Virus record (IMG/VR): IMGVR_UViG_3300035228_000525 | Span: 1-59,138 of that record | From: a virus | Strand: one strand, 5' to 3' | Length of the DNA: 59,138 bases | In this document: positions 7,784 to 31,500 of the stretch, in pieces | Layout of the letters: every line of letters begins with the position of its first letter | Numbering within the stretch: position 1 is the first letter of the stretch | Position numbers and translations under genes: made by a program | The notes under the pieces: generated by a model | Seen by the model: the letters and a program-made list of their open reading frames with translations, nothing else | Told to the model about the DNA's origin: nothing | The model's database searches: none

Positions 7784-7791
7784 TATTTATA
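7784..7791 (-). promoter_or_regulatory. Late promoter box TATAAATA
   Basis: A perfect T4-type late -10 element on the minus strand, 30 nt before the start of the virion gene at 7754. In T4 such boxes are read by host polymerase with gp55, which is encoded in this window. Confidence 0.75.
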
Positions 7792-9291: not shown

Positions 9292-11106
9292 TTACACGCT
9301 ACTACTTAGGTTTTGATCAAATGTCCAATTTCCGCTTGATGTAACAAACTGCTTCAAGCTTCTTGTAGTACTAACAGCTACTGAACCAGTTGCGTTGGTA
9401 AATCCAATATCTTGTACTACTGATTGGTTTTGTGTTCCGTTAGCATCTACTGCTATGAACGATTTAGTTGCTACTGCTGTAATATCAATACCAGTAACTG
9501 TTGCACCAGCAAGAGTTGTGCCATGTATTCTAGCTGTTGTTCCGTTTGCAACGCTAGATGCAGGAACTAGATCATTAATAACTAGTGCAATCTGTGAATC
9601 GTTAAGTCCAGTGATGTCCATACTAAACGCAATAGCCGAACCGGCAATTTGTTGATCTACGTATAATTTATTTGTAACGTCTGCGTCAGCTGTAGGTGCT
9701 CCTACGCCAGTAATTTTTTTACTGTTACTAATAGTAATAGTATCAGCACTAGTAATCGTTAATCCAAGAGCTGTTGTTGTAATTGTTGCCGCATTAATAT
9801 TTGTATTATCAACTTGTAAATTACCTAATGTACCAACCGTAGTTAATCCAGTAGCAGATGTTACACTACTAGCTAGTGTAGTTGTTGATAATACTGTAGA
9901 TCCAGCAATTTTATATGTTTTACCTGTGCTAAGGTCCATATGTTCTGATGATGTCCATGCTTTAGTTGCATTTTTCCAAGTAAAGTTTTTATCATCTCCG
10001 GTAACTCTAATTACCATTCCGGCATCGTCAACTCCAGCATCATTTAATAATGTACTGTCATTTGTAATAGCAAGTTCAATTTGTTTATCTTCAACCCTTA
10101 ATGTAGAAACATCAATGCTTGCACTTGATCCTTCAACTATTAAATTGCCAGTAACACGCATGTCTCCTGTAACATCTAATGTATGCAAAGGAGTATCTTG
10201 GAAAATACCTACACGCTTTGTTGAAGCATCAATATGTACTGCATCAATAGCTAGTGATCCTGCCGCAGAACTTGTTACTTTAATAACATAGTCATCATCA
10301 ATTCTAGCATTTTCTGTAACAAAACTATTGCCAACTATTTTCATAATTTGGTTGGCATTAGGTCCAATTGTCAAACCATTTGAATTTAATACTTGTAACG
10401 CTCCGGTAGTTGTTCCGTCTGCAACTGCTGATAAAAAGCTATCTGCACTAACTGATGTTCCGTCTGCTTTAATTAAGTTTAACGCTTTGTCTGCAACACC
10501 TTGTAGTGTAAATCCTGTTGCGGAATTTGTATCAAGTACATTGATGCCTTTTTTAACATCTCCAGTAAATCCAGGAATAGCAGTTCCAGGTGTAAAAGTA
10601 ATATTACTCATAATAGCCATTAATGTTCCGCCAATATACAAGTCAGCACATGTTCTTGTCCTACTTTGTACATCAAGCCTAGATACTATTTCAAATCCTG
10701 ACTTACCTTGTGTAGTTGAATACAACGGACCGGCTAATACTGGATTATCAGATCCGTCAAAGAAGTATAATTGGTCATTATTATTATTAATCCATAAATC
10801 ACCTGCAACCATCGCCGGCTGTGAAGATTGTACAAAAGGTCCACCAACTGCTTTAAATTGTGCACCGTTATAAACTTTTAATCTACCATCAGAGGTATCC
10901 CACCAAACTTGTCCAGTTACTGGATTTAATGGGCTTGTTGAATTTGAAAAACTTTCTAATAATTTAATATAGTTTTCATTTAGGTATTCTCCAAATCCTG
11001 AATAATTTCTTCCTACTAGTGTAAGTGATGTACTAGCTGTATCAATTGATCCATCTATTAAATCTACAAGTAATGTTCCGTCTGTTTTATTTAATTTATA
11101 GCTCAT
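9292..11106 (-). CDS. Tail fibre paralogue (middle of three)
   Basis: A 604-residue fibre protein sharing the N-terminal module with both neighbours (MSYKLNKTDGTLL, VGRNYSGFGE, LNENYIKLLESF, GQVWWDTSDG). The centre includes LDVTGDMRVTGNLIVEGSS, a beta-strand repeat often found in long phage fibres, and later DADVTNKLYVDQQIAGSA, a trimeric coiled-coil or collar-like element. No collar or chaperone domain is seen at the C-terminus, which ends in a beta-rich stretch with ATGSVAVSTTRSLKQFV. Its ATG overlaps the stop codon of the upstream collar-fibre gene (4 nt), so production is coupled. Confidence 0.75.
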   Translation of the reverse strand: MSYKLNKTDGTLLVDLIDGSIDTASTSLTLVGRNYSGFGEYLNENYIKLLESFSNSTSPLNPVTGQVWWDTSDGRLKVYNGAQFKAVGGPFVQSSQPAMVAGDLWINNNNDQLYFFDGSDNPVLAGPLYSTTQGKSGFEIVSRLDVQSRTRTCADLYIGGTLMAIMSNITFTPGTAIPGFTGDVKKGINVLDTNSATGFTLQGVADKALNLIKADGTSVSADSFLSAVADGTTTGALQVLNSNGLTIGPNANQIMKIVGNSFVTENARIDDDYVIKVTSSAAGSLAIDAVHIDASTKRVGIFQDTPLHTLDVTGDMRVTGNLIVEGSSASIDVSTLRVEDKQIELAITNDSTLLNDAGVDDAGMVIRVTGDDKNFTWKNATKAWTSSEHMDLSTGKTYKIAGSTVLSTTTLASSVTSATGLTTVGTLGNLQVDNTNINAATITTTALGLTITSADTITISNSKKITGVGAPTADADVTNKLYVDQQIAGSAIAFSMDITGLNDSQIALVINDLVPASSVANGTTARIHGTTLAGATVTGIDITAVATKSFIAVDANGTQNQSVVQDIGFTNATGSVAVSTTRSLKQFVTSSGNWTFDQNLSSSV

Positions 11107-13148
11107 ATGTTTACTGCCCCTGCATAGATAATATAATTAATGGACATGAACGGATTCATTGTGTCTAATGCTGTGCCCGTTGTTCCTGATACACCACCAC
11201 TTGTTGAAACAGCTTGCCCTTGGCCGCTTCCTGTTGGAGCATCATAAGTAATAGAAGAAGCAGGACTTTCAGCCCCTTTTGCCGCATCTAGTATTGCATA
11301 AAACTGTGTTCCTTCAACAACTAGATCATGCTCGTGTTCAGGTAAATTGTTAAGTCCAATAGTAACATCTTCGGTACCACCTGTGTTACCAATTTCAGAA
11401 CCTTTTAATCCAGTTACTCGACCTGCGGCAGTGCCGCCCATATTATCTAAACCAATTGGGCTTCTACCTCTTAAATCAGGTAATGCAAATTTTGCAACGC
11501 CGCCATCACTTATTAAATTAGCTTGTTTGTAATCAAAACCAATTAATGTAAACAGCTCTTGATATGTTGTTTGATCAATCTCGCTACCGTCACACAATAA
11601 CCATCCAGGATACTTTACTGGGTCTGGAACTGTTCTTCCAGTGTATGGCATAATAACGCCCGGTGGGTTAGTTGGTACACTTTCTAGTAGCGTATCTCTA
11701 CCAACTCTATATAGTCCTGTTGTTCCTGAAGTTCTGTTTAATAAGAATTCATCATCTGATACTGTAGTTGCTGTATTTGTTTTATTACTAATAAATGCAT
11801 TAGATACCGAAGTTGTAAATACTTTGGTACTACCACCTGTTTGGCCGTCAAATACTAATTGGTTAGCTATTACCTCGCCTGTCATTTGAAAGTTAGTACT
11901 ACTTGCTAATTTATCTGCACTTCCTGCTCGACCACTAACTGTACCAGTTACGTTTCCTAATAGGTTACCATTAAATGTAGTTGCATAAATTCCTAGATAT
12001 TTGTTAGCTGAATTACCAATATTTCTTACGTTTGGCGAGTCTGGTGCTATATTTTGTGTAGTTAAAATACCATCAATATCAAAACTTCCGCCAACATTTA
12101 AATTTCCTGCAATTCCTGCGCCGCCAGCAACTACTAATGCACCGTTACCAAAGTTTGTACTAGAAGTTGTTCCGTCTACGTATATATTTCCACTTAATTT
12201 AATATTACCTGTAACATCTAACTTTTCGCTTGGTGCTGTATTGCTTATGCCAATATTTGTTGTTGAGTCAATACGCATTGCTGTTTGCGTTGTGCCGCTA
12301 TTATTAACTCTAATATCAATATTACTTCCACTAGTATTATGTGTAATAATACCTGCTTCTCCCTCAACCTCAATAGCAAGTTGGTTTCCTGTTCCTAATA
12401 ATAATCCTGAATCATTTTTAATTTTAATTTGATAGTTTGTTGTACTTACTGCATCACCTCTTAAGAAGTTTGTTGCCGCAACGTTTGTAGTACCAATTAA
12501 TAAGTTTTCTGCAACAGTAGATGGACCTACAAATTTAGGAGCACCATCTCCCGTAAGATTTGTTGTAGTTAAGTTAATACCCGGACTTATAGTTGTAAAT
12601 CCGCTAATGGTAGCTTTTGGTGTAAAACTGTCTGCTGAAATAATTGCAACTGGTTTTGCCGCTACTTCAACTTGTACTGCACTATAAACAACATTATCTT
12701 GACCTATTATCTCAACTGGTTGTGCACCAGTTGTAAGTCCGCCTGTAAACTCAGGTCCTACTAATACCCAGCCTGAGCCTGTAAACAAATATAATTGTTG
12801 ATTGTCAGTGTCTACCCATAGGTCACCAACAACACTACTTGATGCTTCAGGCTGTGTTAATGCTTTTTTTAGTCCGCCTGATGCTACCCAATTTGTTGCA
12901 TCATATACTTTTAATTGTTCGCTTCCAGGAGTGTTGTCGTACCAAATTTGTCCTTCAACAGGATTACTTGGCGCAGAATTTTTTGCAAAATTCTCTAATA
13001 AGTGTAAAAAGTTTTCGTTAATTGCAGTACCGTATGCTGTAGTATTTCTTCCAGGAAAACTTAAACTAGTCTGTACATTTAAGGTATTATCCTCAACAGT
13101 AATGCTTCCTTTATTTGATACATCTGTAAAATTAATAGTATATGCCAT
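11103..13148 (-). CDS. Tail fibre with phage tail-collar domain (gp12-like)
   Basis: A 681-residue fibre protein. The N-terminal ~190 residues are the shared attachment module (MAYTINFTDVSNKG, NENFLHLLENFA, GQIWYD). The middle is a beta-repeat region with GAAVV-like repeats such as NGALVVAGGAGIAGNLNVGG. From about residue 490 it has the phage tail-collar pattern: PPGVIMPYTGRTVPD, GWLLCDGSEIDQTTYQELF, FALPDLRGRSPIG, LPEHEHD and a C-terminal NPFMSINYIIYAG. T4 gp12 carries this domain. The role is therefore probably a short tail fibre or adhesin. It starts 4 nt downstream of the preceding gene's stop codon. Confidence 0.85.
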   Translation of the reverse strand: MAYTINFTDVSNKGSITVEDNTLNVQTSLSFPGRNTTAYGTAINENFLHLLENFAKNSAPSNPVEGQIWYDNTPGSEQLKVYDATNWVASGGLKKALTQPEASSSVVGDLWVDTDNQQLYLFTGSGWVLVGPEFTGGLTTGAQPVEIIGQDNVVYSAVQVEVAAKPVAIISADSFTPKATISGFTTISPGINLTTTNLTGDGAPKFVGPSTVAENLLIGTTNVAATNFLRGDAVSTTNYQIKIKNDSGLLLGTGNQLAIEVEGEAGIITHNTSGSNIDIRVNNSGTTQTAMRIDSTTNIGISNTAPSEKLDVTGNIKLSGNIYVDGTTSSTNFGNGALVVAGGAGIAGNLNVGGSFDIDGILTTQNIAPDSPNVRNIGNSANKYLGIYATTFNGNLLGNVTGTVSGRAGSADKLASSTNFQMTGEVIANQLVFDGQTGGSTKVFTTSVSNAFISNKTNTATTVSDDEFLLNRTSGTTGLYRVGRDTLLESVPTNPPGVIMPYTGRTVPDPVKYPGWLLCDGSEIDQTTYQELFTLIGFDYKQANLISDGGVAKFALPDLRGRSPIGLDNMGGTAAGRVTGLKGSEIGNTGGTEDVTIGLNNLPEHEHDLVVEGTQFYAILDAAKGAESPASSITYDAPTGSGQGQAVSTSGGVSGTTGTALDTMNPFMSINYIIYAGAVNI

Positions 13149-13778: not shown

Positions 13779-13786
13779 TATTTATT
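13779..13786 (-). promoter_or_regulatory. Late promoter-like box AATAAATA
   Basis: A one-base variant of the T4 late box on the minus strand, 22 nt before the ATG at 13757 and overlapping the stop of the giant ORF. Confidence 0.5.
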
Positions 13787-16700
13787 TGACTAGCTCGGTT
13801 ACTTTGGTCCTAAGGAACCTTGCAATGTCATTTTCTTGTCTAGTTAGGCTAGTTCCAGGATCTGTCCAGAGTTTACCTTTTTTACGTACTATAATAATCT
13901 TTTGATTCTCTAATGGAGCAGTAGTAAGTGTTAATGTACTAGTTGTACCGTCTATACTAAACTCTGCCGCACTTGATGCATCACCTTCTGGACTATCTAA
14001 ATTAGTAGCCGGATTAAAGATATCTATAGCATTCTTTCTCATACGCTTACCTGCAACAAATACTTCAAACTCGTTTATACTTGTTGGTATAAAGTCTAGT
14101 TCATAAGCAGTTGAAGTACCGTCTGCTGTAAGTACCTGTGTTAGTGTTTCGTCTACATAAGGAATAGTTTGTCCAATGCTTTGTTCAATTACTGTAGTTC
14201 CTGCAGAATAGGTTGGTTTAACTCCTGTTCCGAGTGTTCCTCTACGTAATTGTCTCAAAGTATTGTTTTGTTTCACAAAATATTCAATTCTTTCTCCATC
14301 AATAAACACCACTCCGGGTATTTTTGACGTTTTATTAGGCGTTGGCAACTGACTTGCATCTAATAATTGTATTTTTAAATCAGACCAATTAAGTGCTTCT
14401 GCTAACATATACTTATTCGAATCATCCATACGCTTATAGTGAGTCCGGTTTAGCATATCTTTAAACTGTCTAAACCCAAACTTCTGTAGCGTTGGAGGAG
14501 CAGTAAAGTGTATTAACTCAATAGTGTCGTTTGAATTAATTGGTTTTGTTATTTTAATATGATTTTTGTCTTCTGTAACATAATAATCTACTACTGGTGT
14601 TAATTGTACACCATTTAAGACTACCCACACATATTTTGAATTATTAACAGCTTTGCGTAATTTTACAAATCCATTAGTTAATAATGTATATTCTTGGAAA
14701 TCTACTGTTCCTTCTGATACTGATGTCCTAGTAATAACATTATATTTAATACGTTCAATATCTTGTATGTCATGATTACTAAATGTAGTAATTTCTACAG
14801 TAGCGTCAATTGCCGGAGCATTATCAAAATATATTACCCCTGGTGTTGAAATAAACTTAGTTGAACTATCAGGTCCTGCTTCGATACCTACATATCCAAA
14901 TGCATATTCTCCGTCTGCTACTAGGAATACATCAAGTATTTGTCCAGCTGTTGCTATGTTAGGCGTTAAGTTAACTATATTACTAGCTGAATCCCATTTG
15001 TATTCAATGTTCCTTACTAACTTAATACCATCTATATAAACTTCAATATCCTCGCCACGTATAGTATTAAGACCTAACTGCCAATTCTGTAATTGGTATT
15101 GTAGTAAATTTGTCACAACATGCCTATCACTATATCCTGAATTTAATATAACTCCGTTAACTTTAACTATTGTTTGGTTAGCAACTGGATTGCTTCCTAT
15201 TGGTGTGTTAGCTAATGTATAAGTTTTTGTACTTCCATCTGCTGTAAATTCTTGTGATGCTACTTGACTGAAGTTTGTTCCTGTTGCATAAAATAATCCA
15301 TAATCTATTACTGCGTCTAGTGCAGGTGCTGTATCAAATCTAATTCCTGCGTATCCTTTATCAACTCCGTAACTATCTCCTGCAGAGAAAATTGTAACTG
15401 ATTGTGCAACTCCGTTAATATTAACAAAGTTTGTCATATTTGATTGCCATTCTACATTAGTAATAAACTCTACTGAACTTCCGTCTCCTGTAAATTTATT
15501 AATATCTAAGATCTTTTGTCCTGCTTCTCCCATAACTATTATGTTTAATAATTTACGTGTTGTAGGTGCTGTTGAAAATGTAATAGTATTAGTTGCGTAA
15601 TTTACTGTATATAAACTTGGTGCAACTTTAACATTATCAAGTCTTACAAATATTGCATCTGCTGAATTAGGATGTCCTGCTAGATTAAATGTATCTTTAA
15701 TACCGTCTGTCCAATATACATTACTATAAATTGTACTACCGCCATCAACTGAACGATGAAATACTTTTAAATCCATTGTATCTAATATCTGTCCAGCAAC
15801 TAATTCTTCAGGACCTTTACTAGTAGTTGGAGTTACAAATAAGTCACCGTCTACTACTATTTCAGAAGCCGATATACCTCTAGCAGTATCATATAATGTA
15901 GTTCCGCCATCAAGTAATGTATCGTAAGATGTTACATCAGGTTTAAAGCTACCATCACTAGTAGTTTTTCTAATAATAAATGTGTCATCACTATTTGCTG
16001 TTATGCCTAAGTTTTGTAAATTTATTTCAGTTTGCCCTGCACCTGTAATACTAAGCATCTTAGCATTTGGATTAGTAGCTTCACTAGAATCATTGTAATA
16101 CAAATCGTCTATTCTTATATTATTTTTATAGACATTATATACAACACCAGTTTCTAATGGCGTAGTCCATGTTAATGATGTCGTTGATCCGTCTAGTTGA
16201 AATACTAGATCTTCGTATGTGTTATCATAGGTATCAAATGTTTCTGTAAAGAACGGATCAGTATCCCAACCTGCACTACCTTCAAAACTAAAACTTTTAA
16301 TTTCAACGCCGCCGTAGTCAATACCTTCCATTAACTGCGAAACATCTTTACCTATCATTCCTGTAGTAGGATTATAAAGTAAATTAATTCTATCCTGTGC
16401 ATCTAGTAAATTTGCATCTTTGCTATATGTAACAGTTATTGCCGCACCTAATTTAGGTGGAGTAGTAAAAGTAATCTGACCAATTTCTCTGTCATATCCT
16501 TTGGTGGCGTCTTTAATATTAGTAAACGTATACTCGCTTCTTAATAATTCAATACCTGTAACCACTACTGTTGTATTTGTATTTTTCCTATCCATTGGCC
16601 ATTTTAATTTATAATTAAATTGGGTGCCTGTTCCTGTAAATGATTCGCTTGTAGCAAGAGTAGTAATATAATAACTTCCACTAACTCTATCAAACTTAAA

Positions 16701-19451
16701 CTTAACTTTAGTACCTCTAACTACTCCGTTACCAAGAATAGCACTTGCTCTAGCAATAGTACCATTATCACTTAATCCGCCATCAACAATAATTGTTGGA
16801 GCACTTAAATAACCACTACCTGAAGTTAATACTTCAATTTTACTTATTTTTCCATTATTTAAATATGCTTTTGCTGTTGCACCTGATCCGCTACCGCCTT
16901 CAAATTTAATTACTGGAGGTAGATTATATAAATTACCCGGGTCTCCAATTTCAATACTTGAAACTTCATAACCTGAATTATCGTACCAATGTTTATCTGG
17001 ATACGATGATACATCACGTTGACCATAAATTGCGTCACTGTCTACTTTTGCAGTCGAAGCTTCTATTTTCTGTGTTGCTATACTATACTTAGGAGGTAAA
17101 TCAAAATCTGATACTGTTGTGTTAGTTGGATCAATTTTTTCATATGAACTTACAAACTCTCTAACTTTTGTTTTGTACGGCTTAACTTCATTAATATATG
17201 TTTGGTAGCTTTCTAAATTATCATTTTTAAATGTAACTTTTTGTGCTAACTCGCCTAAGTTATGTTGTGCTTTGACAAAGCTAGTTTTAAATGCCCAATC
17301 AATATTTGGCTGTTCACTAAACGCATATCTAATGCTTGATAAAAATAATTTATTATATTCAGCTTCTAAATTATCAACAAATATCTTATCTCGTAATGTT
17401 TCTAATATTATTCTTGATTCTGTTACAGGTTGTGCATCAAAAAATACACTATCGTAATTATTACTATCAAATCCTACTTTACTTTTTCCTACATTATATA
17501 ATGTATCAGTAAACATAATAGTTGCATTTTGTTTGCCGATTGTTTTATAATTTACTGTGTAATCTTCAGTATCTACGTTTGCTATTTTTTGTAGTAATAG
17601 CCATCCGCCTGAACCAACATTTTCAATTTTTACAGTATCATTAATATCATTATCTAAGCCAGTTAATAAATAACTTGCTGAAATTATATCTGTAGGTGTA
17701 ACAAAATTATTATATCCCGGAGCATACCAGTCTACATAATTCCAATAAAGATTTGTATCATAACGCTGGCTTACACTTCTTTCCCATTTAGTTCCTACTA
17801 ATTCGTATATACTCCATTTGCCGGATACATTAGAATCTGAACTAACTAATGCAGAGAATTTTCTAACTGTAAGTGTAGTAGTTTCATCATATCCCTTACC
17901 TGCATTTATAATTGTTACTGTAGCAATTTGTCCAAGTTCATTTAATGTACATTCTACTTCAGCACCTGTTCCAATTCCATTAACTGTAATCTTAGGGCCT
18001 TTCCTAACACCACTAGTATATGTAGAATCAATATATCCTCTACCAGTACCTGTAATTAATACTTGTGTTAATGTACCGTCAATAATTGTTGGGGTTAATG
18101 TAGGTACTGTTTTATTACCTATTCCTAAAAATGCTAAGTCCTCAAATGTATCAATTACCGAATCATAAAGTTGTGTACTAGCACTTGGTGCTGGATCACT
18201 TTTAACTAAATCACTAATATCAAATTCGTCAACAATTATATGTTGTTTCAAAACATCGTTTGTTCTTTCAATTACTTGTTTAAATGCTTCTGATTTATTT
18301 ACAAATAGACCTTGTCTTGGCCTATCTTGTATTCCATATTTTAATTTAACACTTAATGCAGGATCTGGTACTAGTCTATCCTTATTATCGTATCCAATTA
18401 AACTGTCAAACCATTTGCGTTCAATATCTTTGTTAGGCTTGCTAGTAGCAACGCCCTGTGCAATCATTTGATATTCGTTGTGTATATTTTGATTTTTATT
18501 ACTAGTAGTGTAGTAACGAATGTTTAATGCAATATCTTTATCTTCCATTAACTGTGCTACATTAAATAACGAGAATCTATCTTTACTCATAAGTGCGGCA
18601 AACTTATACCCTGCGCCTGCAGGGTCTTTAATAAGTTGCTGAACAGCACTTGCACTTAAATTTCTAAAGTCTACTTCTGGAATAGTTTTTTTATTTAATA
18701 CCCAAAAATAGTACTTTGTTGATGTTGAATTAGATATAGTATCCCATACTAGTTGTTGACTATAAGCATTATCGCCATATTTTGATAAACCACTTATTCC
18801 TTGTGCTATACCTTCCTCAGTATCTGCAAGTGAATCCCATTCACTTGGTAATATATTAGATTCAACCCATTCCCATATTGCAATGTCTGTTCCTGGAAAT
18901 ACTTCTGACCAAAAATTTGTTTGATAAGTTATATCGTTTTGATAATAATTATAATACTTAACTGCACTTAGATCCCACCATAGTTTGCCAACTGTATCAT
19001 TAGTCCAGCCACCATAAGTATCAACAACAACACTAGTATCACCAATATTATAAGACGCAGGATCGTAATAAGTTTTAAAACTTAATTCTTGCTCTGCTAT
19101 TCCTGCAATTTTTCCTTGAACTGGATCAATTAGATCAATATCAGCAATGAATGTATTTGTTTTTGTGTTATATAGGAATGCACTTTTAATATTAGACAAA
19201 TCTACTTGGTCTAATGGATTTCTATGTGTAACCCATGCAGTAGTTCCAAGTATTTTTCTATAATCAACTACCATGCCTTGATACGTATTAAAGTCTGTCA
19301 TATGAGGCATACTTGCATAAACGTGATTGTTATTTACTAGTATGTTTTTACCAAACATTATTGAGTCACTATTATCAAACAAAAACTCTTCAGCATATAC
19401 TAATGTTTCATTAATTCTTTCGTAAGTGTAAATAACTCCACTATCCATCAT
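13782..19451 (-). CDS. C-terminal part of giant baseplate/tail protein, downstream of in-frame amber
   Basis: The first ATG downstream of the amber codon at 19587-19589 gives 1889 residues, but the frame is open and identical with the preceding 2995-residue ORF. Translation of 19452-19586 gives an FG-GAP-like half blade (QFGTALGFDGNVLAVTALQGD) joining both parts, and the ATG pair at 19451 has no ribosome-binding site, so this is probably not an independent gene. The sequence has repeated Ig-like units (a GxGT/ADGSTKTY start, a VNGV turn and an ITF..AP end), consistent with tail or adhesin proteins. The C-terminus ends ENDIARFLRTKVTELVK, a type of ending I recall from marine T4-like virion proteins. 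It reads 5669 nt with no other stop, so it is under selection. Confidence 0.7.
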   Translation of the reverse strand: MMDSGVIYTYERINETLVYAEEFLFDNSDSIMFGKNILVNNNHVYASMPHMTDFNTYQGMVVDYRKILGTTAWVTHRNPLDQVDLSNIKSAFLYNTKTNTFIADIDLIDPVQGKIAGIAEQELSFKTYYDPASYNIGDTSVVVDTYGGWTNDTVGKLWWDLSAVKYYNYYQNDITYQTNFWSEVFPGTDIAIWEWVESNILPSEWDSLADTEEGIAQGISGLSKYGDNAYSQQLVWDTISNSTSTKYYFWVLNKKTIPEVDFRNLSASAVQQLIKDPAGAGYKFAALMSKDRFSLFNVAQLMEDKDIALNIRYYTTSNKNQNIHNEYQMIAQGVATSKPNKDIERKWFDSLIGYDNKDRLVPDPALSVKLKYGIQDRPRQGLFVNKSEAFKQVIERTNDVLKQHIIVDEFDISDLVKSDPAPSASTQLYDSVIDTFEDLAFLGIGNKTVPTLTPTIIDGTLTQVLITGTGRGYIDSTYTSGVRKGPKITVNGIGTGAEVECTLNELGQIATVTIINAGKGYDETTTLTVRKFSALVSSDSNVSGKWSIYELVGTKWERSVSQRYDTNLYWNYVDWYAPGYNNFVTPTDIISASYLLTGLDNDINDTVKIENVGSGGWLLLQKIANVDTEDYTVNYKTIGKQNATIMFTDTLYNVGKSKVGFDSNNYDSVFFDAQPVTESRIILETLRDKIFVDNLEAEYNKLFLSSIRYAFSEQPNIDWAFKTSFVKAQHNLGELAQKVTFKNDNLESYQTYINEVKPYKTKVREFVSSYEKIDPTNTTVSDFDLPPKYSIATQKIEASTAKVDSDAIYGQRDVSSYPDKHWYDNSGYEVSSIEIGDPGNLYNLPPVIKFEGGSGSGATAKAYLNNGKISKIEVLTSGSGYLSAPTIIVDGGLSDNGTIARASAILGNGVVRGTKVKFKFDRVSGSYYITTLATSESFTGTGTQFNYKLKWPMDRKNTNTTVVVTGIELLRSEYTFTNIKDATKGYDREIGQITFTTPPKLGAAITVTYSKDANLLDAQDRINLLYNPTTGMIGKDVSQLMEGIDYGGVEIKSFSFEGSAGWDTDPFFTETFDTYDNTYEDLVFQLDGSTTSLTWTTPLETGVVYNVYKNNIRIDDLYYNDSSEATNPNAKMLSITGAGQTEINLQNLGITANSDDTFIIRKTTSDGSFKPDVTSYDTLLDGGTTLYDTARGISASEIVVDGDLFVTPTTSKGPEELVAGQILDTMDLKVFHRSVDGGSTIYSNVYWTDGIKDTFNLAGHPNSADAIFVRLDNVKVAPSLYTVNYATNTITFSTAPTTRKLLNIIVMGEAGQKILDINKFTGDGSSVEFITNVEWQSNMTNFVNINGVAQSVTIFSAGDSYGVDKGYAGIRFDTAPALDAVIDYGLFYATGTNFSQVASQEFTADGSTKTYTLANTPIGSNPVANQTIVKVNGVILNSGYSDRHVVTNLLQYQLQNWQLGLNTIRGEDIEVYIDGIKLVRNIEYKWDSASNIVNLTPNIATAGQILDVFLVADGEYAFGYVGIEAGPDSSTKFISTPGVIYFDNAPAIDATVEITTFSNHDIQDIERIKYNVITRTSVSEGTVDFQEYTLLTNGFVKLRKAVNNSKYVWVVLNGVQLTPVVDYYVTEDKNHIKITKPINSNDTIELIHFTAPPTLQKFGFRQFKDMLNRTHYKRMDDSNKYMLAEALNWSDLKIQLLDASQLPTPNKTSKIPGVVFIDGERIEYFVKQNNTLRQLRRGTLGTGVKPTYSAGTTVIEQSIGQTIPYVDETLTQVLTADGTSTAYELDFIPTSINEFEVFVAGKRMRKNAIDIFNPATNLDSPEGDASSAAEFSIDGTTSTLTLTTAPLENQKIIIVRKKGKLWTDPGTSLTRQENDIARFLRTKVTELVK

Positions 19452-19586
19452 TACTGTTTTAAAGTTAGTAAATTTGTTATCAAAGTAAGTATTTTCTGCA
19501 TCAAATATAGTTGGAGAATCAATGTCTCCTTGTAATGCTGTTACAGCTAATACATTTCCATCAAATCCTAGAGCAGTACCAAACTG

Positions 19587-19589
19587 CTA
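19587..19589 (-). other. In-frame amber codon within giant ORF (readthrough or nonsense)
   Basis: TAG follows codons for HNNEVA and is followed by CAG TTT GGT. The same frame stays open upstream to 28574 and downstream to 13782 (4931 codons in all). TAG is a genuine stop elsewhere here (ends of gp55 and the tape measure gene), so the code is not simply reassigned. TAG-CAG-TTT is close to the leaky context UAG-CARYYA known from tobamovirus readthrough. Confidence 0.85.
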
Positions 19590-22500
19590 TGCAACTTCAT
19601 TATTATGACTAGTTAATGTCTGTGATAAAGTAAATGTTCCTGCTGTTAGTTTATAAATGTAAACTTTGCCTTGTGAGCTTGCAACTGAGTTATTATAAGG
19701 TTCACCTACAGCAATTAACGTACCGTCTGCACTAATTGATATTGCATCGCCAAACCCAGTAAGAGTATCTGTACTCACATCAGTGTATGGTCCCTCAATT
19801 GTTTGTGATATAGTAAACTGCCCGTTAACTTGACGATAAACATTAACTGCTCTAGCTCCTGTACTATCATTACCTTGTATCTTAGTGCTTGTAATTAATA
19901 CTTGTCCTGTTTTATCTTGATCAAACTTCTTAGCAAAGTCTCTAATTCCGCCTTCTGGAGTATAAATTCCTTCTCCTATAACTAATTGTTCTGGCGTACT
20001 TGGTATATACCCAACATGCGTAGTAGTACTAGATAATTTAGTCCAGTTTGTTGTAGAAAATGCTGACCCACTAGCAATGTTTTGATTTGCACTATATAAT
20101 TCTTTATTATATGATACAATTTCGTCTACTTTATAGAATGTAGTTACACTAAACTGGCCTCTAAATAATGGATTAATATCTAATTGCCAGTCATAATTTA
20201 CAAAAGTATTTCCAACAGTATTTTCACGTCCGTTTTTAATAAAATGTATACTACCTGGATTAGATTCAGTATCATTTCCGTTTGAAGCAACTGCAACTCT
20301 ATAAAGTGCATTAACTCCTGTACCGGTTTGTGTTACTTGTATTTCATCACCAAATTTCTTATAGTGCTCTCTTTCAGGTATTACATAAGAATTATTATGT
20401 TCAAACTGATTTACTTCACTAATTGAGTATATTGAAATCATACCTTCTTGTGTTAATCCACTTCCGGTAGCATTTGTACTATTGCTTGCAATTAAATTAT
20501 TTACTTGTGACCAGTCATTATTATTACTTGACGGAATGTTAGCACCTCTAGCAATACCTTGTAGTGTAATTTCATTATAGATCCAATATTCTTTATCTAG
20601 TAGCTGTGTAATAGCAACATTAGCAAAGTTAGTTGTTTCTGTTATAACAAATATTTTTCCAACTTCTGAAGTTCCTAGCGAAACATTTTTAATTTCGCCC
20701 ATTGTTCTGTCTGGAGTTCCTTGTCTAATAATATCAGATGTTTGTCCCCAATTATCACCTAAACTCCAATTTCCAGTAGTATTTTTAACATACAATCTTA
20801 CATCATTAAACTGTCTTTTATAGAATACAACTTCTGCTGTTGCGCCACTTGATGCATCTCTGACTATATCACCAACTGCTGGTTCAAAAGGTAACTGATT
20901 TAGTGTACTAAAATTATCAAATACGAAATCAATATATCCGTCCCATACATCAGCAATAGTATGTTGCTTATTAAGTATATCAAATGTAAATGCTGTACCT
21001 GTTAAGTCTACTAAACCGCTTTGATTGTCGACCTTAAGAAAGAATTGGTCTCCTATAGTCTTTACATCTGAAAATACTTTAGGAACTCTTATTGCCCATT
21101 GATTAGAAGTTTGAACTCCGAATACTTCTCCCGGGTCGCCCTCATAAGTAAAACTTTCAATAAACGATATTTGATCGTTTGCTGATGTTTTTGCTCCAAT
21201 AGCTTGTATATTATCTTGTATATTATAAAAATAATTTGGCGTTCTGCCTGAATTTTCTTTAATAACATCTACATATATTAATCCTTGCCCCGGATCTACA
21301 AATATATTAGAACTATCTGCTGATGTTTCATAAGCAGGTGTTGTTATCATCCAATATCCGCCGACATTACTTGAAGGATTTACGTAATCTTCAGTATAAT
21401 CTCCAACTGCAATCTCATTAATAAACAACTGTCCTGTTGATGCAAATGTTCCATTTACATCTTTTACGTATACTATTGCGGCTCCGTCTGCATCGCCAAC
21501 ATAAGCTACTGTGCCACTAGCAACTGCACTATTTACTGTTTGTCCTACACCTGGTAAGTTTTGGAAGTTTGCAATATGTAATACATTCTCAACTTTATTA
21601 ACAATAGGATGCGTATCTGTTAAAAACGCACCAGTTATTGGTGCAAATTGTCCGTCAAATGGTTCTACAGCAACATTATATCCTTGAATATTTAAGTTAC
21701 TATAAGTATTCCATTTTAATACAATACTGTCGCCTTCTTTAGATCCTTCGTATGCTTGCTTAGGTGCTCTTACTAATAAATGAGTTGTGTTTGGCTTACT
21801 GTTAAGTTTATAGTTGCCAGTTTGGAGCAAATTAAGTAGTGTACTATCAGTATCAGAAACTATATCAGCATAAGAATCAAAAGTAGTATACGGAATAGAT
21901 CCAACTGCGCCGTCGATAACTGCTACTGCTTTAAACAAGTTAGGACCATATTTTATTATATCATTTTTATTATAGTTACTACCTTCGATATAGGTACCTT
22001 TATATGCAGTTTTTACATTACTTGCATGAGGTGATCCAATAATTAAATACTTTCCGTCTGGACTGAACGAAACACTTTCGCCAAATTTCTGTGATGTAAT
22101 TTCTGTACTTCCGTCATATGTGTCAACATATGTTGAAGGAGCACTAATTGTTTGATCAAATACTAAATTATTTGCATCACTTGAACGTTTATAAACATGC
22201 ACTTCGCCGTTTCCTTTATCAGGAATACCAATAGCTAATAATGTATTAGCTTCATTTGCAGTAATACTATGTCCAAAATTATGTTGAGTGCTATCTAATG
22301 GAAGACTACTTTTAAGTGTTTGTGCTTGAGTATATACTGGAGAGTTTTTAATAACTTTCCATTTTCCAGTATCATCATCATCGACCCAAATTACTTCTTT
22401 TGATTGTAAGTCTTTAGTACTTAAATTATTTGCATCTGATAATGTACTAACTCGTTGGGTTGAAAATTTTGTTATTATACCATTTAAATTAGTTAACGAA

Positions 22501-25500
22501 GCTAGTTTTTCCCAATCAGGAAGTTCTGATTCTATTTCAATTTTATTATTGAATACATCTGTAATAGTATAAAACGCCTCTACTGTTGTTGGAGCAGTAT
22601 CAGTTCCAACTATTTGATCTATATTATAAATTCCAATAATATCACCTATTGCAACATTAACTGTGTTATTACAATTAAGTGTTATAGTAGTAGATTCTTG
22701 CGTTATTGTTTGAATTATTAAATTACTATCAACATGCTTTAATACATTCCATGATTGATCGTCTGTTGCTACCCATACATATGCACCCTTGTCTATATCA
22801 CTAGTTGCAAAATTTAGTAATCCGGCAGTATTAGATACTGCTCTATTAACATCTTCGCCTGTAACATACCCAACTGTTTTTACATATTCGTCATTTAAAA
22901 ATTTTGTTGGCAGTCTGTTTGTTTCGTAATCTTTAGGTTTTAAAAATACATCATAATGCGGAATTCTATAAGTTAGATCTGTTGTTGCAGTTGGTACAAC
23001 GTCTACTAGCTCAATTGGTTGTGGCTCAAGTCTAAATTTAGCCTCGTCTAATTGATATTCAATTTCTTCAAATCCATCACTTGCACCGTATTGTGCAGAT
23101 TTAATAGCCCATTCTTCATAAAAGTCAACACTATCTTTATCAGCACTTGCTAAACTATCAAATAATTTATCAATAGCATTTCTTGTACCTTTATCAGCTA
23201 TCATTCCTTGATAAAATTTATATTGACTTACTTCGTCATTAATAATGTTTTCTAAATATTGTCTTTTTTGGTAGCCAATTAAATGCTGTGCCATTTTTTG
23301 TTGATCTGAATCAAAATTATCTGAATCAAGATCGTAAAAGTCAGAAAATTGATTAATTCTATAATCAAAGTTTGTTAGCAGTTTTGTATCTGGCTTTTTA
23401 TCTAATCGAGCCCAGTTTAAGGGATCAAATATTTCTGTTCCTGTAATATTAGTCGTTGCACTATAATAAAATTCTTTGTATTTTACTACATCACCAATAG
23501 CAAAATCAGTCCATTGTGCCCAATTAACTACTTTAGCAGAATCAAATATAAATCCAGGAATATTAAGACTACCAGTCCATCCAGCGGCTACATATCCTAA
23601 TACTTTAATTCTTTCTTGTCGATATCCTGTAGCAGGACTGTATATTACATCTTCAAATACTGATTTATTATCTAAAACTGCAACATGTTCATATTGCACT
23701 TGAGGGAGAATTGAATGATAAAGTCCATCAGCAGTATTTTTAAGTTGTATTACAAAGTTTCCACTGTCTCTGTTTAATCTTGTAAGATCTTCAGTTATTT
23801 TTTGACCGCTGGCATTTAAAATACTATAATCATAAAAGCTATCATATAAGTTATCAATTACAGAAAATGTTGAATTAAATTCTAATTTTGAAGCCGATGG
23901 ACTAATTGCTAAAACTGTCCCGGCCGCCCAATTTTGTGTGGTAAAATATAGAAATTCTTTTGTACTTAATTTCCAATCTTCAACAACTTGTGATTCTTTA
24001 TTATAGTAATCAAATTTAAATCCTACAGATTCTAAATAATTTCCGTAGCCTAAGATAAAATCAACTACATCTTGTATTGATTCAAGTAACGTGCCATATG
24101 GTAAAACTTTAACATCTGTTTCAAAACTTTTTCTATATACTGCGGTACGTCCACCAAGTGTAGGAAGTTCAGCCATTGGCTGAAATTTATCTGCTTCAAA
24201 ACTTGTAGTACTTGTATGCTCTGCTTTTACTCTGTAAAATTGACTATTATTTCTTACATTACTACCTACTAAGTATTTTTGCCCTGTTGACCATTCTAAG
24301 AAAGACTCTGATATCCCGCCAACATTAATATTTGGATCACTTATAGTTACTTGTGGTTCATTGTAATTAAACGTAGGGTTTGTATTATCGTATCCTCTAA
24401 CAATAAACCCACCTGGTGCTTTTTCAATCATTATACCACTATAAGATGCTACCTTTAACGGAGAACTTTTATTTAAGAAAATGTTGTAATTCTCTGTTGG
24501 TAAGAATACGTTTCCTTTATTAAATGGAGTTCTGCTATCTAGTATAAATTTTAATTTTTCTTTATCAGTAAATGACCCTAGCTTAATACCTAATTGATTT
24601 TTAATTAATTTAAAATTTTCTTTATAAGTTGAAACATCTGTTGTTCCTTCACTAGCTAAGTAATCAACAATATAATTAATTAATCCTGATGTATGAGTTA
24701 TAGTAGTATCAGTTGCAACTGTTGGTAATACTAAATCTTTAGATGATAATGATTTTTCAGTTGTAGAATATATCCATTGACCTGATAACGACTTATTCAT
24801 CCTAGATAGATCAAATCCTAATCCCATTATTTTATGAGGTTGATTTAATATCCAAGACTTAATTAAACTAAATGGATATTCTCCACTACGTCTCCAAGCA
24901 GTTTCTGTAGGGCCTTCGTCGCCAAACTTTAGAGAAGATGCAATTGATGACGGAACAAATCCTGATGTAAATCCTGCTTCTTGTGGACTTAATAGCTGTC
25001 CAGATTCATTAACTGGAATATGTTTAAGTAATTCTTTTCTTTTATATTTTTTAATAAATTCTGCAGGAACATTAGGTGCTTTAATCTTACCTTCTTGTAT
25101 ATCTTCCCACATTACTAAGTTATTACTTGTATAAGGTGCAGGACCATATTGTGTTTCCCACCAAGTAGGCATAATTGTAAAGCCTAACATCTCCCAAGGA
25201 TGGCTATGGGGTCTATCTGTATCGTATGCTTGTTTATATACAGATCTCCAAAATCCGTTAACATTTGTCTCGTCTCGTGTAGACATCTCTGAATAGTTCC
25301 ATGTAAAACTATTAGCTCTAGTATAAAAATCTGTAGTTGAAGTATAGTTTAATCCGCCTAGGCTTTCTGACCACTGTACAAAATCACGCATCATTGCATT
25401 GTCTATTTGTGTTTTAGTAAATTTTGTATTTCTATCGTTACTTGGCACAAAATTGTGTATATCTAATCTAGTAGTATCATATGTTATTTTAATATTATTA

Positions 25501-28500
25501 AAAATTCTTTTTTCTAATTCTAATAATAACTGATCTCTATAGTCCATGAACGCTATTGTTTTACTGCCGTCGTGACCTTGTATTACTCGTGTAGTTGTTT
25601 GGTAGGTATCATCTTCTATTATTTCTGGATGATATGAAGGATATAATCCTAACTTAGTTGGAGTTGGTGGAATAAAACTTCCGGCTGTATTTTCATACTC
25701 AAATATTTCAATTAAATCATTTTTAGTTTTAGTTGCTGTTATAACAGCAAATCCATCTGTATTAAATGTATAATCTTTATTATGTATTAATTGAACACCG
25801 TTTTGATAAATTGTAACTGCTTTTGATGAAAGTGTATTTAAATCATATACTTGGCTTAATGAAAAGAAATTATTTTCTGAATCATAAACTACAAATTCTA
25901 AACGCTTGTAACCTTCACCAGGAACCATATCACTAAAACGATAAGGATCAGTATCTATTTTATCTTTATGATATTCATGTAATATTTTATCAACATGTTG
26001 CTTTACTGGTCCATCATAACCCAACGTTTCGGCTATTTGTAAAAAAGATCTTTTAAATTTTCTATATTCTTTTCTAGCAAAATCAATTGCTTTAATTATG
26101 TTTGCATCTTTATCAGTAGCATGATATACATTTATATTTGGTGACCCTGCATACTGTAAAAACTTTTTACCATAAGATGATATATTACCAAGACTTGCAA
26201 TATTACTTACTCCAGGAAATATTCCTGTAAACCCTGGTAAGTCTTCTATCATAGTATTAACATGGTCATTTACTTCTCCTAGTGTAAATGTACTAAGATT
26301 TTCATTTTCTGGATTTTTTTCCATTGCATGTGGAAATTCGTAGTGCCCGTTAGCATTTTTAATTGTATCACTATTAGTTTTAATTACTACACTGCTATTT
26401 ACAGGTATTGCTGTTGCAAATCTAACAGTCTTAACTCCGTTAACATCTACAAGAGTATAATCAAATCTCCAAGTATTATCAACTTGAACTGCACATTTTA
26501 GATCTGTAAGTGTACTACTGTTATCATAAACATCAATACTAAAATCTGTTTGTGCAGTAGTAACGTCATACTGTCTAATAACTTTTGAGACTGTATTTGT
26601 ATTAGCTTTCTTCCAACCATTACAATAAGTAAAACTATCAATATCTGTGTAAACTCTATAAAAGCCAGTATCAGACTTTTTAGATAAAGGTGTGTTATTA
26701 ATTTGATAATTAAACGTATCTGTTACTAAATTAAAATCAAAAGTTATATCACCTACATTTTCTAATGCTCTGTAAGTAATAGGAAATCCTAATTCAATGT
26801 CATTAGTGCCTGATCCAACTTTATAACTAAAGATTTTGTTACCACGGAAATCATTTACTGGATAAGTAGTTTCGTTGGTAAAACTAATACCATTATTATC
26901 AAATAATTCAAATAATGGTTGTTGATTTATTTTTGTTTTTAGTTGTGCTACTTTCCAATCAGTGCCATTATAATAATACTGTTTACCTGCATTAGTACCT
27001 TTAGTTATTAATGCAACCTGGTTAGTAATTGGCAATGTGTCGTCTTCTTCAATCAGTGCAATTTGCGTTACTGTTGAATTGTGTTTAATCATTTTAACTT
27101 TATAGATTCTATCTTTTACAAGTAGATCAGGATCAGCTACGAACAAAATACGCATGCCGTCAGTAATATCAACACCGTCAATATTATAACCTTCTCTACC
27201 ATTAATAGTTGAAAATACATCAGTAGTAAATGTATCTATAAGATCTACATTTTCTGCTTTTGCTGATGTACCAAATTGATAAAGTTTCATTCCGGCATTA
27301 AATTCAAGAATTGGTCGTTTAGCTCTTGCACTTTGATCAATATTAAAAACTTGTCCATTTAGAGTTGCTGTTTTTTCAAGTACTGATTTATGAAACCATC
27401 GATTGTTTCTAGACCAAGCATTTTTATCAGGAGATGCTCTATTAATTACAACATAGTCCTTAGTTGCCGCATACGAACTAGCTGTTCCATATGGAAGGTT
27501 ATCAAAGTTATTTGCATCAAATAGCACTTCTATATCTTCTGAATATGTTTGAGGGATTATTAAATCTGTGTCTTGGATTAGTAAAATTTTATTACCTACT
27601 CCTTCAACATACCAAGAACCTGTTGCATATTTTTCAGGAGTAACTGTTCCTGTAAAATTAAGCTTCATTCCGTTCATTAATTCAGTACCGTTTGCACTAG
27701 TATAAGTTTTTTTACCTAGTATATCATCAGATATGTTAATAGATGTATTTGATTCAATTTCTGCAATTCTAAACATTCCGCCTGTATTAACATCTGTTTC
27801 TGAAACATAATACAATCTCTCAGGAGCATTTAGCGGAACAGTAAATGTTACAACACCATTGTCAACACCAGCGTTAGTAACTCCTGTTGCGTATTCATTG
27901 TCACTTTCAATCAATCTCGAAGTTCTTATTGTAAACGGAAGTCCAGGAGTACCTACATCAAATATATAAGTTTGTCCTCTATATAATTCTAATGTAGGAT
28001 TCTGTGTTAATTCACCATTAAATACGTAACCCTTATTTCCAGCATTATCAACGCTATTTACAGTATATGTACTTGTAACATCATCTGATTGTCCAAAAAT
28101 TGATATTGGAGCAGGACCACTTGGTAGCCAATAATACTCACGGAAGTTTGTAAGTTTATCCCAGTCTACGCTAGAATCCCAAGAGTAATATTCTTGACTA
28201 TTGAATAAACTTTCATTAGTAGTAGTACCACCTAATATATCAAGCTGATTTCTAAAATCATTATAATCTTTATAAAATAAAACATTATTCAATATATCTT
28301 TAGAAACTAATGCAGGCTCTAATTGATAATTAGTTCTATTAGCGTTAACATCGCCTAGATAGATATCTGTCGGTGAGTATGCCGGAGCTGTTTTTCTACC
28401 AAGATAACCATTTAATTTTTTAGCTGTACCAGGCTTTGTAACCTGATCGAGTGTAGAATTTAAAAATTTTTCATTACTTTCTGTACGAAAGTATTTTGGT

Positions 28501-28574
28501 AATAGTTCAGCGGACTTTCTATCAGATTTACCATTAACTGGTAGTGGATAGTCCTTTTGATCATCGTACGCCAT
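19587..28574 (-). CDS. Giant baseplate/tail structural protein, N-terminal 2995 residues (gp7-like position)
   Basis: A 2995-residue protein beginning one base inside the gp6 stop (TAATG). In T4 the gene after 6 is 7, a baseplate wedge protein, so a gp7-like role is plausible by order; I cannot see clear T4 gp7 motifs. N-terminal ~300 residues include a cupredoxin-like stretch (LELYRGQTYIFDVGTPGLPF). Around residues 860-1040 the pattern GHDGSKTIAFMDYRDQLLLELEKRIF resembles large marine T4-like structural proteins. From about residue 2100 on are FG-GAP-like repeats (FGHSITANEANTLLAIG, FGESVSFSPDGKYLIIGSP, FGDAISISADGTLIAVG), a probable beta-propeller interrupted by other domains. The TAG stop falls inside this propeller. 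Confidence 0.75.
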   Translation of the reverse strand: MAYDDQKDYPLPVNGKSDRKSAELLPKYFRTESNEKFLNSTLDQVTKPGTAKKLNGYLGRKTAPAYSPTDIYLGDVNANRTNYQLEPALVSKDILNNVLFYKDYNDFRNQLDILGGTTTNESLFNSQEYYSWDSSVDWDKLTNFREYYWLPSGPAPISIFGQSDDVTSTYTVNSVDNAGNKGYVFNGELTQNPTLELYRGQTYIFDVGTPGLPFTIRTSRLIESDNEYATGVTNAGVDNGVVTFTVPLNAPERLYYVSETDVNTGGMFRIAEIESNTSINISDDILGKKTYTSANGTELMNGMKLNFTGTVTPEKYATGSWYVEGVGNKILLIQDTDLIIPQTYSEDIEVLFDANNFDNLPYGTASSYAATKDYVVINRASPDKNAWSRNNRWFHKSVLEKTATLNGQVFNIDQSARAKRPILEFNAGMKLYQFGTSAKAENVDLIDTFTTDVFSTINGREGYNIDGVDITDGMRILFVADPDLLVKDRIYKVKMIKHNSTVTQIALIEEDDTLPITNQVALITKGTNAGKQYYYNGTDWKVAQLKTKINQQPLFELFDNNGISFTNETTYPVNDFRGNKIFSYKVGSGTNDIELGFPITYRALENVGDITFDFNLVTDTFNYQINNTPLSKKSDTGFYRVYTDIDSFTYCNGWKKANTNTVSKVIRQYDVTTAQTDFSIDVYDNSSTLTDLKCAVQVDNTWRFDYTLVDVNGVKTVRFATAIPVNSSVVIKTNSDTIKNANGHYEFPHAMEKNPENENLSTFTLGEVNDHVNTMIEDLPGFTGIFPGVSNIASLGNISSYGKKFLQYAGSPNINVYHATDKDANIIKAIDFARKEYRKFKRSFLQIAETLGYDGPVKQHVDKILHEYHKDKIDTDPYRFSDMVPGEGYKRLEFVVYDSENNFFSLSQVYDLNTLSSKAVTIYQNGVQLIHNKDYTFNTDGFAVITATKTKNDLIEIFEYENTAGSFIPPTPTKLGLYPSYHPEIIEDDTYQTTTRVIQGHDGSKTIAFMDYRDQLLLELEKRIFNNIKITYDTTRLDIHNFVPSNDRNTKFTKTQIDNAMMRDFVQWSESLGGLNYTSTTDFYTRANSFTWNYSEMSTRDETNVNGFWRSVYKQAYDTDRPHSHPWEMLGFTIMPTWWETQYGPAPYTSNNLVMWEDIQEGKIKAPNVPAEFIKKYKRKELLKHIPVNESGQLLSPQEAGFTSGFVPSSIASSLKFGDEGPTETAWRRSGEYPFSLIKSWILNQPHKIMGLGFDLSRMNKSLSGQWIYSTTEKSLSSKDLVLPTVATDTTITHTSGLINYIVDYLASEGTTDVSTYKENFKLIKNQLGIKLGSFTDKEKLKFILDSRTPFNKGNVFLPTENYNIFLNKSSPLKVASYSGIMIEKAPGGFIVRGYDNTNPTFNYNEPQVTISDPNINVGGISESFLEWSTGQKYLVGSNVRNNSQFYRVKAEHTSTTSFEADKFQPMAELPTLGGRTAVYRKSFETDVKVLPYGTLLESIQDVVDFILGYGNYLESVGFKFDYYNKESQVVEDWKLSTKEFLYFTTQNWAAGTVLAISPSASKLEFNSTFSVIDNLYDSFYDYSILNASGQKITEDLTRLNRDSGNFVIQLKNTADGLYHSILPQVQYEHVAVLDNKSVFEDVIYSPATGYRQERIKVLGYVAAGWTGSLNIPGFIFDSAKVVNWAQWTDFAIGDVVKYKEFYYSATTNITGTEIFDPLNWARLDKKPDTKLLTNFDYRINQFSDFYDLDSDNFDSDQQKMAQHLIGYQKRQYLENIINDEVSQYKFYQGMIADKGTRNAIDKLFDSLASADKDSVDFYEEWAIKSAQYGASDGFEEIEYQLDEAKFRLEPQPIELVDVVPTATTDLTYRIPHYDVFLKPKDYETNRLPTKFLNDEYVKTVGYVTGEDVNRAVSNTAGLLNFATSDIDKGAYVWVATDDQSWNVLKHVDSNLIIQTITQESTTITLNCNNTVNVAIGDIIGIYNIDQIVGTDTAPTTVEAFYTITDVFNNKIEIESELPDWEKLASLTNLNGIITKFSTQRVSTLSDANNLSTKDLQSKEVIWVDDDDTGKWKVIKNSPVYTQAQTLKSSLPLDSTQHNFGHSITANEANTLLAIGIPDKGNGEVHVYKRSSDANNLVFDQTISAPSTYVDTYDGSTEITSQKFGESVSFSPDGKYLIIGSPHASNVKTAYKGTYIEGSNYNKNDIIKYGPNLFKAVAVIDGAVGSIPYTTFDSYADIVSDTDSTLLNLLQTGNYKLNSKPNTTHLLVRAPKQAYEGSKEGDSIVLKWNTYSNLNIQGYNVAVEPFDGQFAPITGAFLTDTHPIVNKVENVLHIANFQNLPGVGQTVNSAVASGTVAYVGDADGAAIVYVKDVNGTFASTGQLFINEIAVGDYTEDYVNPSSNVGGYWMITTPAYETSADSSNIFVDPGQGLIYVDVIKENSGRTPNYFYNIQDNIQAIGAKTSANDQISFIESFTYEGDPGEVFGVQTSNQWAIRVPKVFSDVKTIGDQFFLKVDNQSGLVDLTGTAFTFDILNKQHTIADVWDGYIDFVFDNFSTLNQLPFEPAVGDIVRDASSGATAEVVFYKRQFNDVRLYVKNTTGNWSLGDNWGQTSDIIRQGTPDRTMGEIKNVSLGTSEVGKIFVITETTNFANVAITQLLDKEYWIYNEITLQGIARGANIPSSNNNDWSQVNNLIASNSTNATGSGLTQEGMISIYSISEVNQFEHNNSYVIPEREHYKKFGDEIQVTQTGTGVNALYRVAVASNGNDTESNPGSIHFIKNGRENTVGNTFVNYDWQLDINPLFRGQFSVTTFYKVDEIVSYNKELYSANQNIASGSAFSTTNWTKLSSTTTHVGYIPSTPEQLVIGEGIYTPEGGIRDFAKKFDQDKTGQVLITSTKIQGNDSTGARAVNVYRQVNGQFTISQTIEGPYTDVSTDTLTGFGDAISISADGTLIAVGEPYNNSVASSQGKVYIYKLTAGTFTLSQTLTSHNNEVA

Positions 28575-31500
28575 TAGTAACTATATCCTCCGCTACTGCT
28601 ACTGCTACTGCTACTGCTACTGCTACTGCTACTGCTCGAGCCGCTATTTGAATTAATAGTAGTGTTATAAGAACTACTAGAACTTTGTATTCCAGTATTT
28701 GCTGTTTCTGTACTTGCTGTTACAACGTTGCCTGTTGCTTTTAATCTAGTTGCTGTTATGCTATCTATAATGTCTACATCTGCAACTGTTGCTCCACTTA
28801 TAAAAATTTCATCTGACTCTGACTTAATTTCGTATAATGATCCAAATGCTTGTGTGTCTTCATTTGGAACAATTACTATAGAACTAATATTAGGTGCAAG
28901 CTGATTCATTATATACGTTGATAATTCTGAAAAGTAAAATGATTCGCCAAATTCCCAATTCTCTAAACTAAAATATTCATTTATTGCGTTTATTACATTT
29001 GATTTAATTTCATTATCATTTGTAACTGTTTCTACATTTTTTACAATTTTAAAGGTTGCTTGCAAACTAGCCTCCGCTGATGGACCAAAAAGTATTTTAT
29101 ACTTTACTGGATGATAAATTACTTCATCACTAATAGATTTAATTTTATCTAACGCAACACCATAACTTCTATAAAGTTGATCGCTACTTGGCGGCATTGG
29201 TTTTACTGCAATATCTCCGTTAAGCCATTGTCTATAACTGTTATCATATAAACGAGTCAACATGTAAATATCTATTAAATTTGTACTACTAGGATCAATT
29301 CTTTTATTATTGTCTGCGGCATGTACGTACCTAAATTTTAAATCTGATCTTCCTAAAAATGCTTTATAAGTTGATATTTGTGTTAATGTAAGTTTATCAG
29401 TTGATAGTTGCTTAAATAATCCAGTATCAATGTAGTAAAAAACTTCTAATGCATCATAAGAACTATATGCATTCATTGCCGATTCAGTTGTTAGTACACT
29501 AATATTTTCGACGTTTGCTTTTACATATTTGAAATCTTCAACTCCATCAGTAGTAGTATATTTTTTCTCGAAAATATATTTTGTAGTCGGTGATATTGTT
29601 TCTTGTACAATATCAATAAACGAATTTGGGTTATCAACAACACCATCATCGTCGTCATCAAAGAAAGATATTTCTACTTTTTTGGTATCGACATATCCAT
29701 CATTGTCTCTATATTCTTTTGTAATTTCAAAATTATAATCTTTTGTAAAAGGAGTAGTACTACCGGGTAGAGTATTAATACTTAATACTTCAATTTTATC
29801 TTTAATAATTTTTCCTGTTTTATTATCATAAATTTTATCACTACTGTCATAATAAAATTTAATCTCATTATCACTTTCATATACATAACGCATTGCTCTA
29901 TATGTAATATCGTATTTTTCGCCATCAGTTTTAAACCACAGTAACCAACTTGCATCTAAATTTTGACTACTAACATCACCTGTTTTACCTGTACTAAATG
30001 GACTAGTAGTATTTAGGTTTACTTCTGTAATAATTCTCCATTGTCTAGTAGATACATCGTATCGCAAGCCAAAAGTATTATTAGCAAACGCTTGATCAAT
30101 AATTTGTGTTTTAACAGAATTAAGTATTTTTGTACTTAATTTAGGTCTAATCTCTGTTAATAATGCAGTTGATGGAATACTGTCATTTAATACTATTGGT
30201 CCTAAACCTGCTGTAGTATTTGTTGTGCCGTCACCATTAACACTGATTACTTTTACCCATTTGTAAGTTAAAGACCCAGGGTGATTGGCATCTCCTATCA
30301 TAAGTGTAGTTTTGTCACCTACCATAAAATGATACCCTGCAGGTGCTTCAAATTTTAGTAGTGACCCTGCTTCTAACAAACTAAGATTATTAGCTGTAAA
30401 AGATCCTACTTTATATTTTGCATCACTTTCATCTATTAAATATCCTGTTCCTCTATTAGTATCTGTAGTAACCTGCACCCATTCTGCTTTTAAATCAGAC
30501 GTAATAATTTTTGTAAAATTTGTAAGGTAGTAATTTAAAACTCTTCTGTCTTTTAATATTGGTTCTATTTTATTTGTAATAGCACTTTCAATATCTGTTT
30601 GTGTTGTGTAAGGAAAACTGTCTTTTTGAGTTAAATTTTCTTTATATATAATACCATCATTTGCAAATAAATTAGTACTACTATATTTTCCTGTAGAATC
30701 TAATAAGTCGTAGTATCTACTAATTCCGCTTGCAAACCTATTAACTGATTTAACTTTAATAATATCTTGACTTATACCTAATGGAGCAACATTGTAATCT
30801 TCTGCTGTAACCATTCTATTTTGTGTATAATATGTTGACGGAGCATTTTGTTTAATGCTATCGTTTGATTCACTAGTAGTACTATTAGACACTGTATATT
30901 TTAATTCTAAATTAAGTGTAATTGTTTCAATTACGTTACTTTTACTTAGATACGGAACTCTTACTTGTATTCCGGTCATGTCTTGCGGTTTAATTACATA
31001 TCTTTGATTATTACTAGTTCTATAAAAGACTTTAAATACACCTTTTGGTAATTCACCAAAAGTACCGTCGGAAAATACTAAACTAACTCTGTCACTTACT
31101 CTAGTAAGTACACTATATATTGTTCTAACTTTTTTACTAATGCTATTATAGATAACATTGTTGCCTTCAACAGCTTCAACTTTTGTCCAGTATTCTGCTT
31201 CTTGTCCTGACGAGTCTAATTTATATAACCATACATCGTCGTTGTTAATATTAGTTGCATCAATATCAATTATTTGATTTGTTGTAGGATTATTAACAAC
31301 AAATTGACCACTGTCAAGTGATCCTTGTTTGAACATACAAAAGAATCCTGTATTACTACTTGACGGTCCTTTGCCATCATCTTTAAATAAGTATGCAAAA
31401 CTATTTGCAGTTAGTGGAATTTCTTCTTGTATACTTTTTAAATCCGAATCAATATCTGTAGAAACAACTTCAAAATCTAAACTAGATCCTTGAACTGTTT

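Follow-up and report, generated by a model that had tools for sequence, protein, structure and literature searches.

The in-frame amber codon at positions 19589-19587 (minus strand) of this viral record is, almost certainly, the product of an ordinary base change. The reading that we favour, with a probability of roughly 0.64, is that of an erroneous consensus base within a gene that encodes one uninterrupted baseplate protein; otherwise, the codon would most likely have arisen by a nonsense mutation of recent date, and the genome would be defective. In either case the change is a private one-base substitution, by which the G that opens a Glu codon on the coding strand becomes T; the gene of this lineage encodes a single protein of about 4,930 aa, and no decoding mechanism would be involved. 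Stop codon readthrough, reassignment of TAG and a genuine split into two proteins are, taken together, very improbable explanations. Throughout, "the window" refers to the entire 59,138-nucleotide stretch that was analyzed.

A Single Giant Gene with One Interruption

Translated on the minus strand, positions 28574 to 13782 yield 4,930 codons with a single internal stop, the TAG at codon 2996, and a terminal TAA, as described in an earlier note on this DNA; so long a frame, about 4,900 codons with one interruption, is far beyond chance. In a mechanical list of open reading frames this same frame appears as two entries, one of 2,995 aa (19587-28574) and one of 1,889 aa running from the next ATG (13782-19451), and the existence of these two entries is what would speak for a genuine split into two proteins. 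We nevertheless regard such a split as the least probable of all the explanations. Profile searches place the N-terminal half on positions 549-1465 of phrog_10938 (E 6e-235) and the C-terminal half on positions 1798-2149 of the same family (E 8e-70), and since both match this one family in the right order, they represent the halves of one gene. Ka/Ks, calculated against an 84%-identical contig (L005), is 0.104 before the TAG and 0.104 after it, as expected for one continuous gene. The ATG at 19451 corresponds to Met3042, which is found in only two of 27 representative sequences, and the earlier observation that it lacks a ribosome-binding site holds: no Shine-Dalgarno-like sequence precedes it (upstream CAAATTTACTAACTTTAAAACAGTA), and most other genes in the window carry GGA/GAGG-type sites. 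The break also lies within a domain. Furthermore, every relative whose DNA holds both gene ends has a single open reading frame of about 4,720-5,420 aa, and two proteins with a clear start for the second, the arrangement that the earlier note took as evidence against one interrupted gene, were seen in none of the relatives examined. The apparent downstream open reading frame is an artefact of the stop.

The genomic context agrees with the annotation as a giant baseplate or virion structural protein. The gene lies directly downstream of a baseplate wedge subunit gene (phrog_10646; 28574-32107, minus strand), the same placement as in the phages RaK2 and PA5oct, each of which has one giant coding sequence (ORF070w and gp355, respectively); gp355 is annotated as found by ESI-MS/MS.

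A Sense Codon in All Relatives

A scan of IMG/VR returned 49 related loci, of which 48 cover the stop site, at identities that reach down to about 30-36%; many of these are near-duplicates, and 27 representatives were also counted. The comparison of the site in related phages, which the earlier note had called for, gave a uniform result: all 48 carry a sense codon, and the usual residue is Glu, not Gln. The codon is GAA or GAG in 37 sequences, AAA in six, CAA or CAG in four, and AGA in one that is weakly aligned, with a stop in none. Among the representatives the residue is E in 23, Q in three and K in one, and the FG beside the site is almost invariant.

The nearest relative, IMGVR_UViG_3300024348_000150 (loci L003 and L054), has GAG at the site and an uninterrupted open reading frame of 4,930 aa. 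The alignment takes in all 32,873 bp of this contig, which correspond to window positions 11998-44870, with 11 substitutions and no indels (99.96% identity). Given that this near-identical contig has GAG and that all relatives have a sense codon, the TAG is private to the window record and differs by one base from the codon in this closest contig. When IMG/VR was scanned with patterns for the exact surroundings of the site, only the near-identical contig matched, and no second copy of the TAG was recovered. Phage records gave no match in a nucleotide search or in a search with the 1,003 aa that precede the stop; only the C-terminal half reached named phages. A scan of genome contigs added two distant relatives, at 36% identity, from a Marinimicrobia MAG. 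Two contigs of 153 kb and 335 kb (L057 and L058), which are assigned to a Candidatus Neomarinimicrobiota MAG (RS350, Red Sea) and carry a gene for a relative of the baseplate protein, may be jumbo-phage contigs that were binned with the bacterium.

The Stop Interrupts a Predicted β-Propeller

The earlier note had placed the TAG inside an FG-GAP-like blade, and the fold is borne out by a Pfam FG-GAP_2 match at residues 2941-2974 and by structure prediction. AlphaFold2, run on the intact segment of the nearest relative (residues 2086-3120; window 19217-22319, minus strand) with 27 aligned sequences, gave a confident model (mean pLDDT 84, pTM 0.73), which aligns along its length with integrin alpha headpieces (Z about 29-31, rmsd about 3.1, about 350 residues). 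Seven FG-type repeats begin at about residues 2100, 2164, 2741, 2884, 2941, 2998 and 3074, and in our own reading of the model these correspond to the seven blades of one propeller. The stop corresponds to model residue 911, between the strands 895-903 and 913-919 and just before blade 6. The model therefore places the TAG within a single predicted β-propeller, between blades 5 and 6 and not at a domain boundary, and a product ended there would lose blades 6 and 7 as well as about 1,800 further residues. The propeller is possibly a receptor- or glycan-binding module; one of its insertions shows a weak CBM_5_12 match (residues 2808-2838).

The position of the stop bears on programmed or tolerated readthrough, by which a minor full-length protein would be made beside the 2,995-aa form. 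Such a mechanism, put forward in the earlier note, would accord with a frame that goes on for 1,934 codons past the TAG and with the 3' context CAG TTT. Natural readthrough sites typically separate domains, whereas this stop breaks a propeller, and CAGTTT does not fit the leaky motif CARYYA. A stimulatory 3' RNA structure, which not every readthrough site needs, was looked for in the 97 nt after the TAG, and this segment is not unusually structured (z-score -0.53). Conservation of the stop would also be expected, yet it is missing from all 48 relatives, the 99.96%-identical contig included. Readthrough is accordingly a highly improbable explanation.

TAG as a Normal Terminator

Some phages are known to read TAG as an amino acid (PMC11210395, PMC9523058), and since the window covers only part of its genome, a suppressor tRNA could be encoded elsewhere. 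We consider reassignment in this lineage to be more improbable still than readthrough. The 59 kb hold one gene-disrupting in-frame TAG, while three genes (1880-3256, 40549-41385 and 49707-52211) end with TAG, in agreement with what had been noted before, and all other compared genes are full length under table 11. A tRNA search of the window, an incomplete genome, returned none, and an Rfam search of the window returned no match. The IMG/VR records of seven relatives, up to 187 kb long and either fragmentary or of unknown completeness, contain Gly-TCC as their only tRNA, and no suppressor was seen in them. The suppressor tRNA proposed in the earlier note thus found no support in these records or in the use of TAG within the window.

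A Probable Consensus Error or a Possible Recent Nonsense Mutation

Two further suggestions of the earlier note, a recent nonsense mutation and a base error, are both favoured by the sense codon in the near-identical contig. On the first of these, the TAG would be real and recent, and the sampled genomes would be defective, or would persist either through complementation during co-infection or in a host that carries a suppressor tRNA. This is a possible though less likely explanation. In its favour, the change is one substitution among others that include genuine strain polymorphism, and over the 7.6 kb that follow the stop there are zero differences from the nearest relative, so that any loss would be very recent. 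However, the gene is long, conserved and under purifying selection (Ka/Ks about 0.10), its product is a virion component in a relative (PA5oct), a truncated allele should not reach the majority in a viable population, and neither the window nor the records of the seven relatives contain a detectable suppressor tRNA. A variant in which the real TAG is fixed in one strain of a jumbo-like phage, with a host suppressor or readthrough producing the virion protein through this very recent stop, appears very doubtful.

In our preferred reading, the substitution would most likely stem from an incorrect base in the metagenomic consensus, possibly the result of damage, amplification or error at low coverage. 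With the TAG in place, a conserved virion protein would lose two of its seven blades and its C-terminal ~1,800 residues, and a genome of this kind should not form the majority in a population of viable phage, which argues for a consensus error. The 11 differences from the near-identical contig comprise six synonymous, four missense and one nonsense change. The synonymous share (6/11) exceeds the 21% expected for random changes (P = 0.016), which suggests that most of the differences probably represent real polymorphism shaped by purifying selection, with the nonsense change as the odd one out. Since about 5.1% of random substitutions in the giant gene would be nonsense, one random error giving a stop is unremarkable. 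Against a consensus error, the record is otherwise clean: in comparison with the 84%-identical contig (L005, L059 and L060) the baseplate gene is the only split one, with all other matched genes full length or nearly so, and no frameshifts occur, so that nothing else in the record points to low base quality. For G-to-T sequencing artefacts of oxidative origin, a literature search found nothing specific to metagenome assemblies.

The in-frame stop itself carries little biological weight: automatic annotation would list two proteins where the lineage encodes one baseplate protein of about 4,930 aa. It does provide a practical lesson: when one isolated in-frame stop turns up in a phage contig from a metagenome, recoding should be invoked only after comparison with a near-identical contig.

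Neighboring Genes

Elsewhere in the window, three consecutive tail genes (11103-13148, 9292-11106 and 7787-9256, minus strand) have their N-terminal ~290-330 aa in common at about 32-35% identity, a sequence pattern that suggests fibre proteins in which the attachment domain is shared. Two neighboring radical-SAM-like genes (445-3256, minus strand; phrog_14086, with Pfam Radical_SAM just under the cut-off) follow downstream of the tail genes, and the 84%-identical contig (L060) has at least four further radical-SAM paralogs beyond these two. Such a tandem array looks unusual for a phage.

Comparison with Known Systems

An in-frame TAG in a structural gene is also found in the crAss-like phages that have reassigned this codon (code 15). 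Code-15 phages are described as carrying many in-frame TAGs (PMC10607447, PMC11210395, PMC9523058), with 41 open reading frames holding such stops reported for the recoded phage phAss-1 (PMC10607447), in contrast to the one TAG of the window, where TAG is a normal terminator and no suppressor tRNA was found. The FG-GAP propeller of integrin alpha chains has the same fold as that predicted for residues 2086-3110 of the baseplate protein, and the FG repeats are common to both; identity is about 14-18%, the baseplate propeller has large insertions between its blades, and the common fold does not show a common function. The closest known counterparts are the giant virion structural proteins of phrog_10938, ORF070w of Klebsiella phage RaK2 and gp355 of Pseudomonas phage PA5oct, which have in common with the window gene the family profile, the position after the wedge gene and the single coding sequence. 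At about 3,330 and 3,860 aa, respectively, they fall short of the ~4,930 codons of the window gene, and identity to them is about 25-29% over part of the C-terminal half only. The internal TAG is a feature of the window copy and not of the RaK2 and PA5oct genes.
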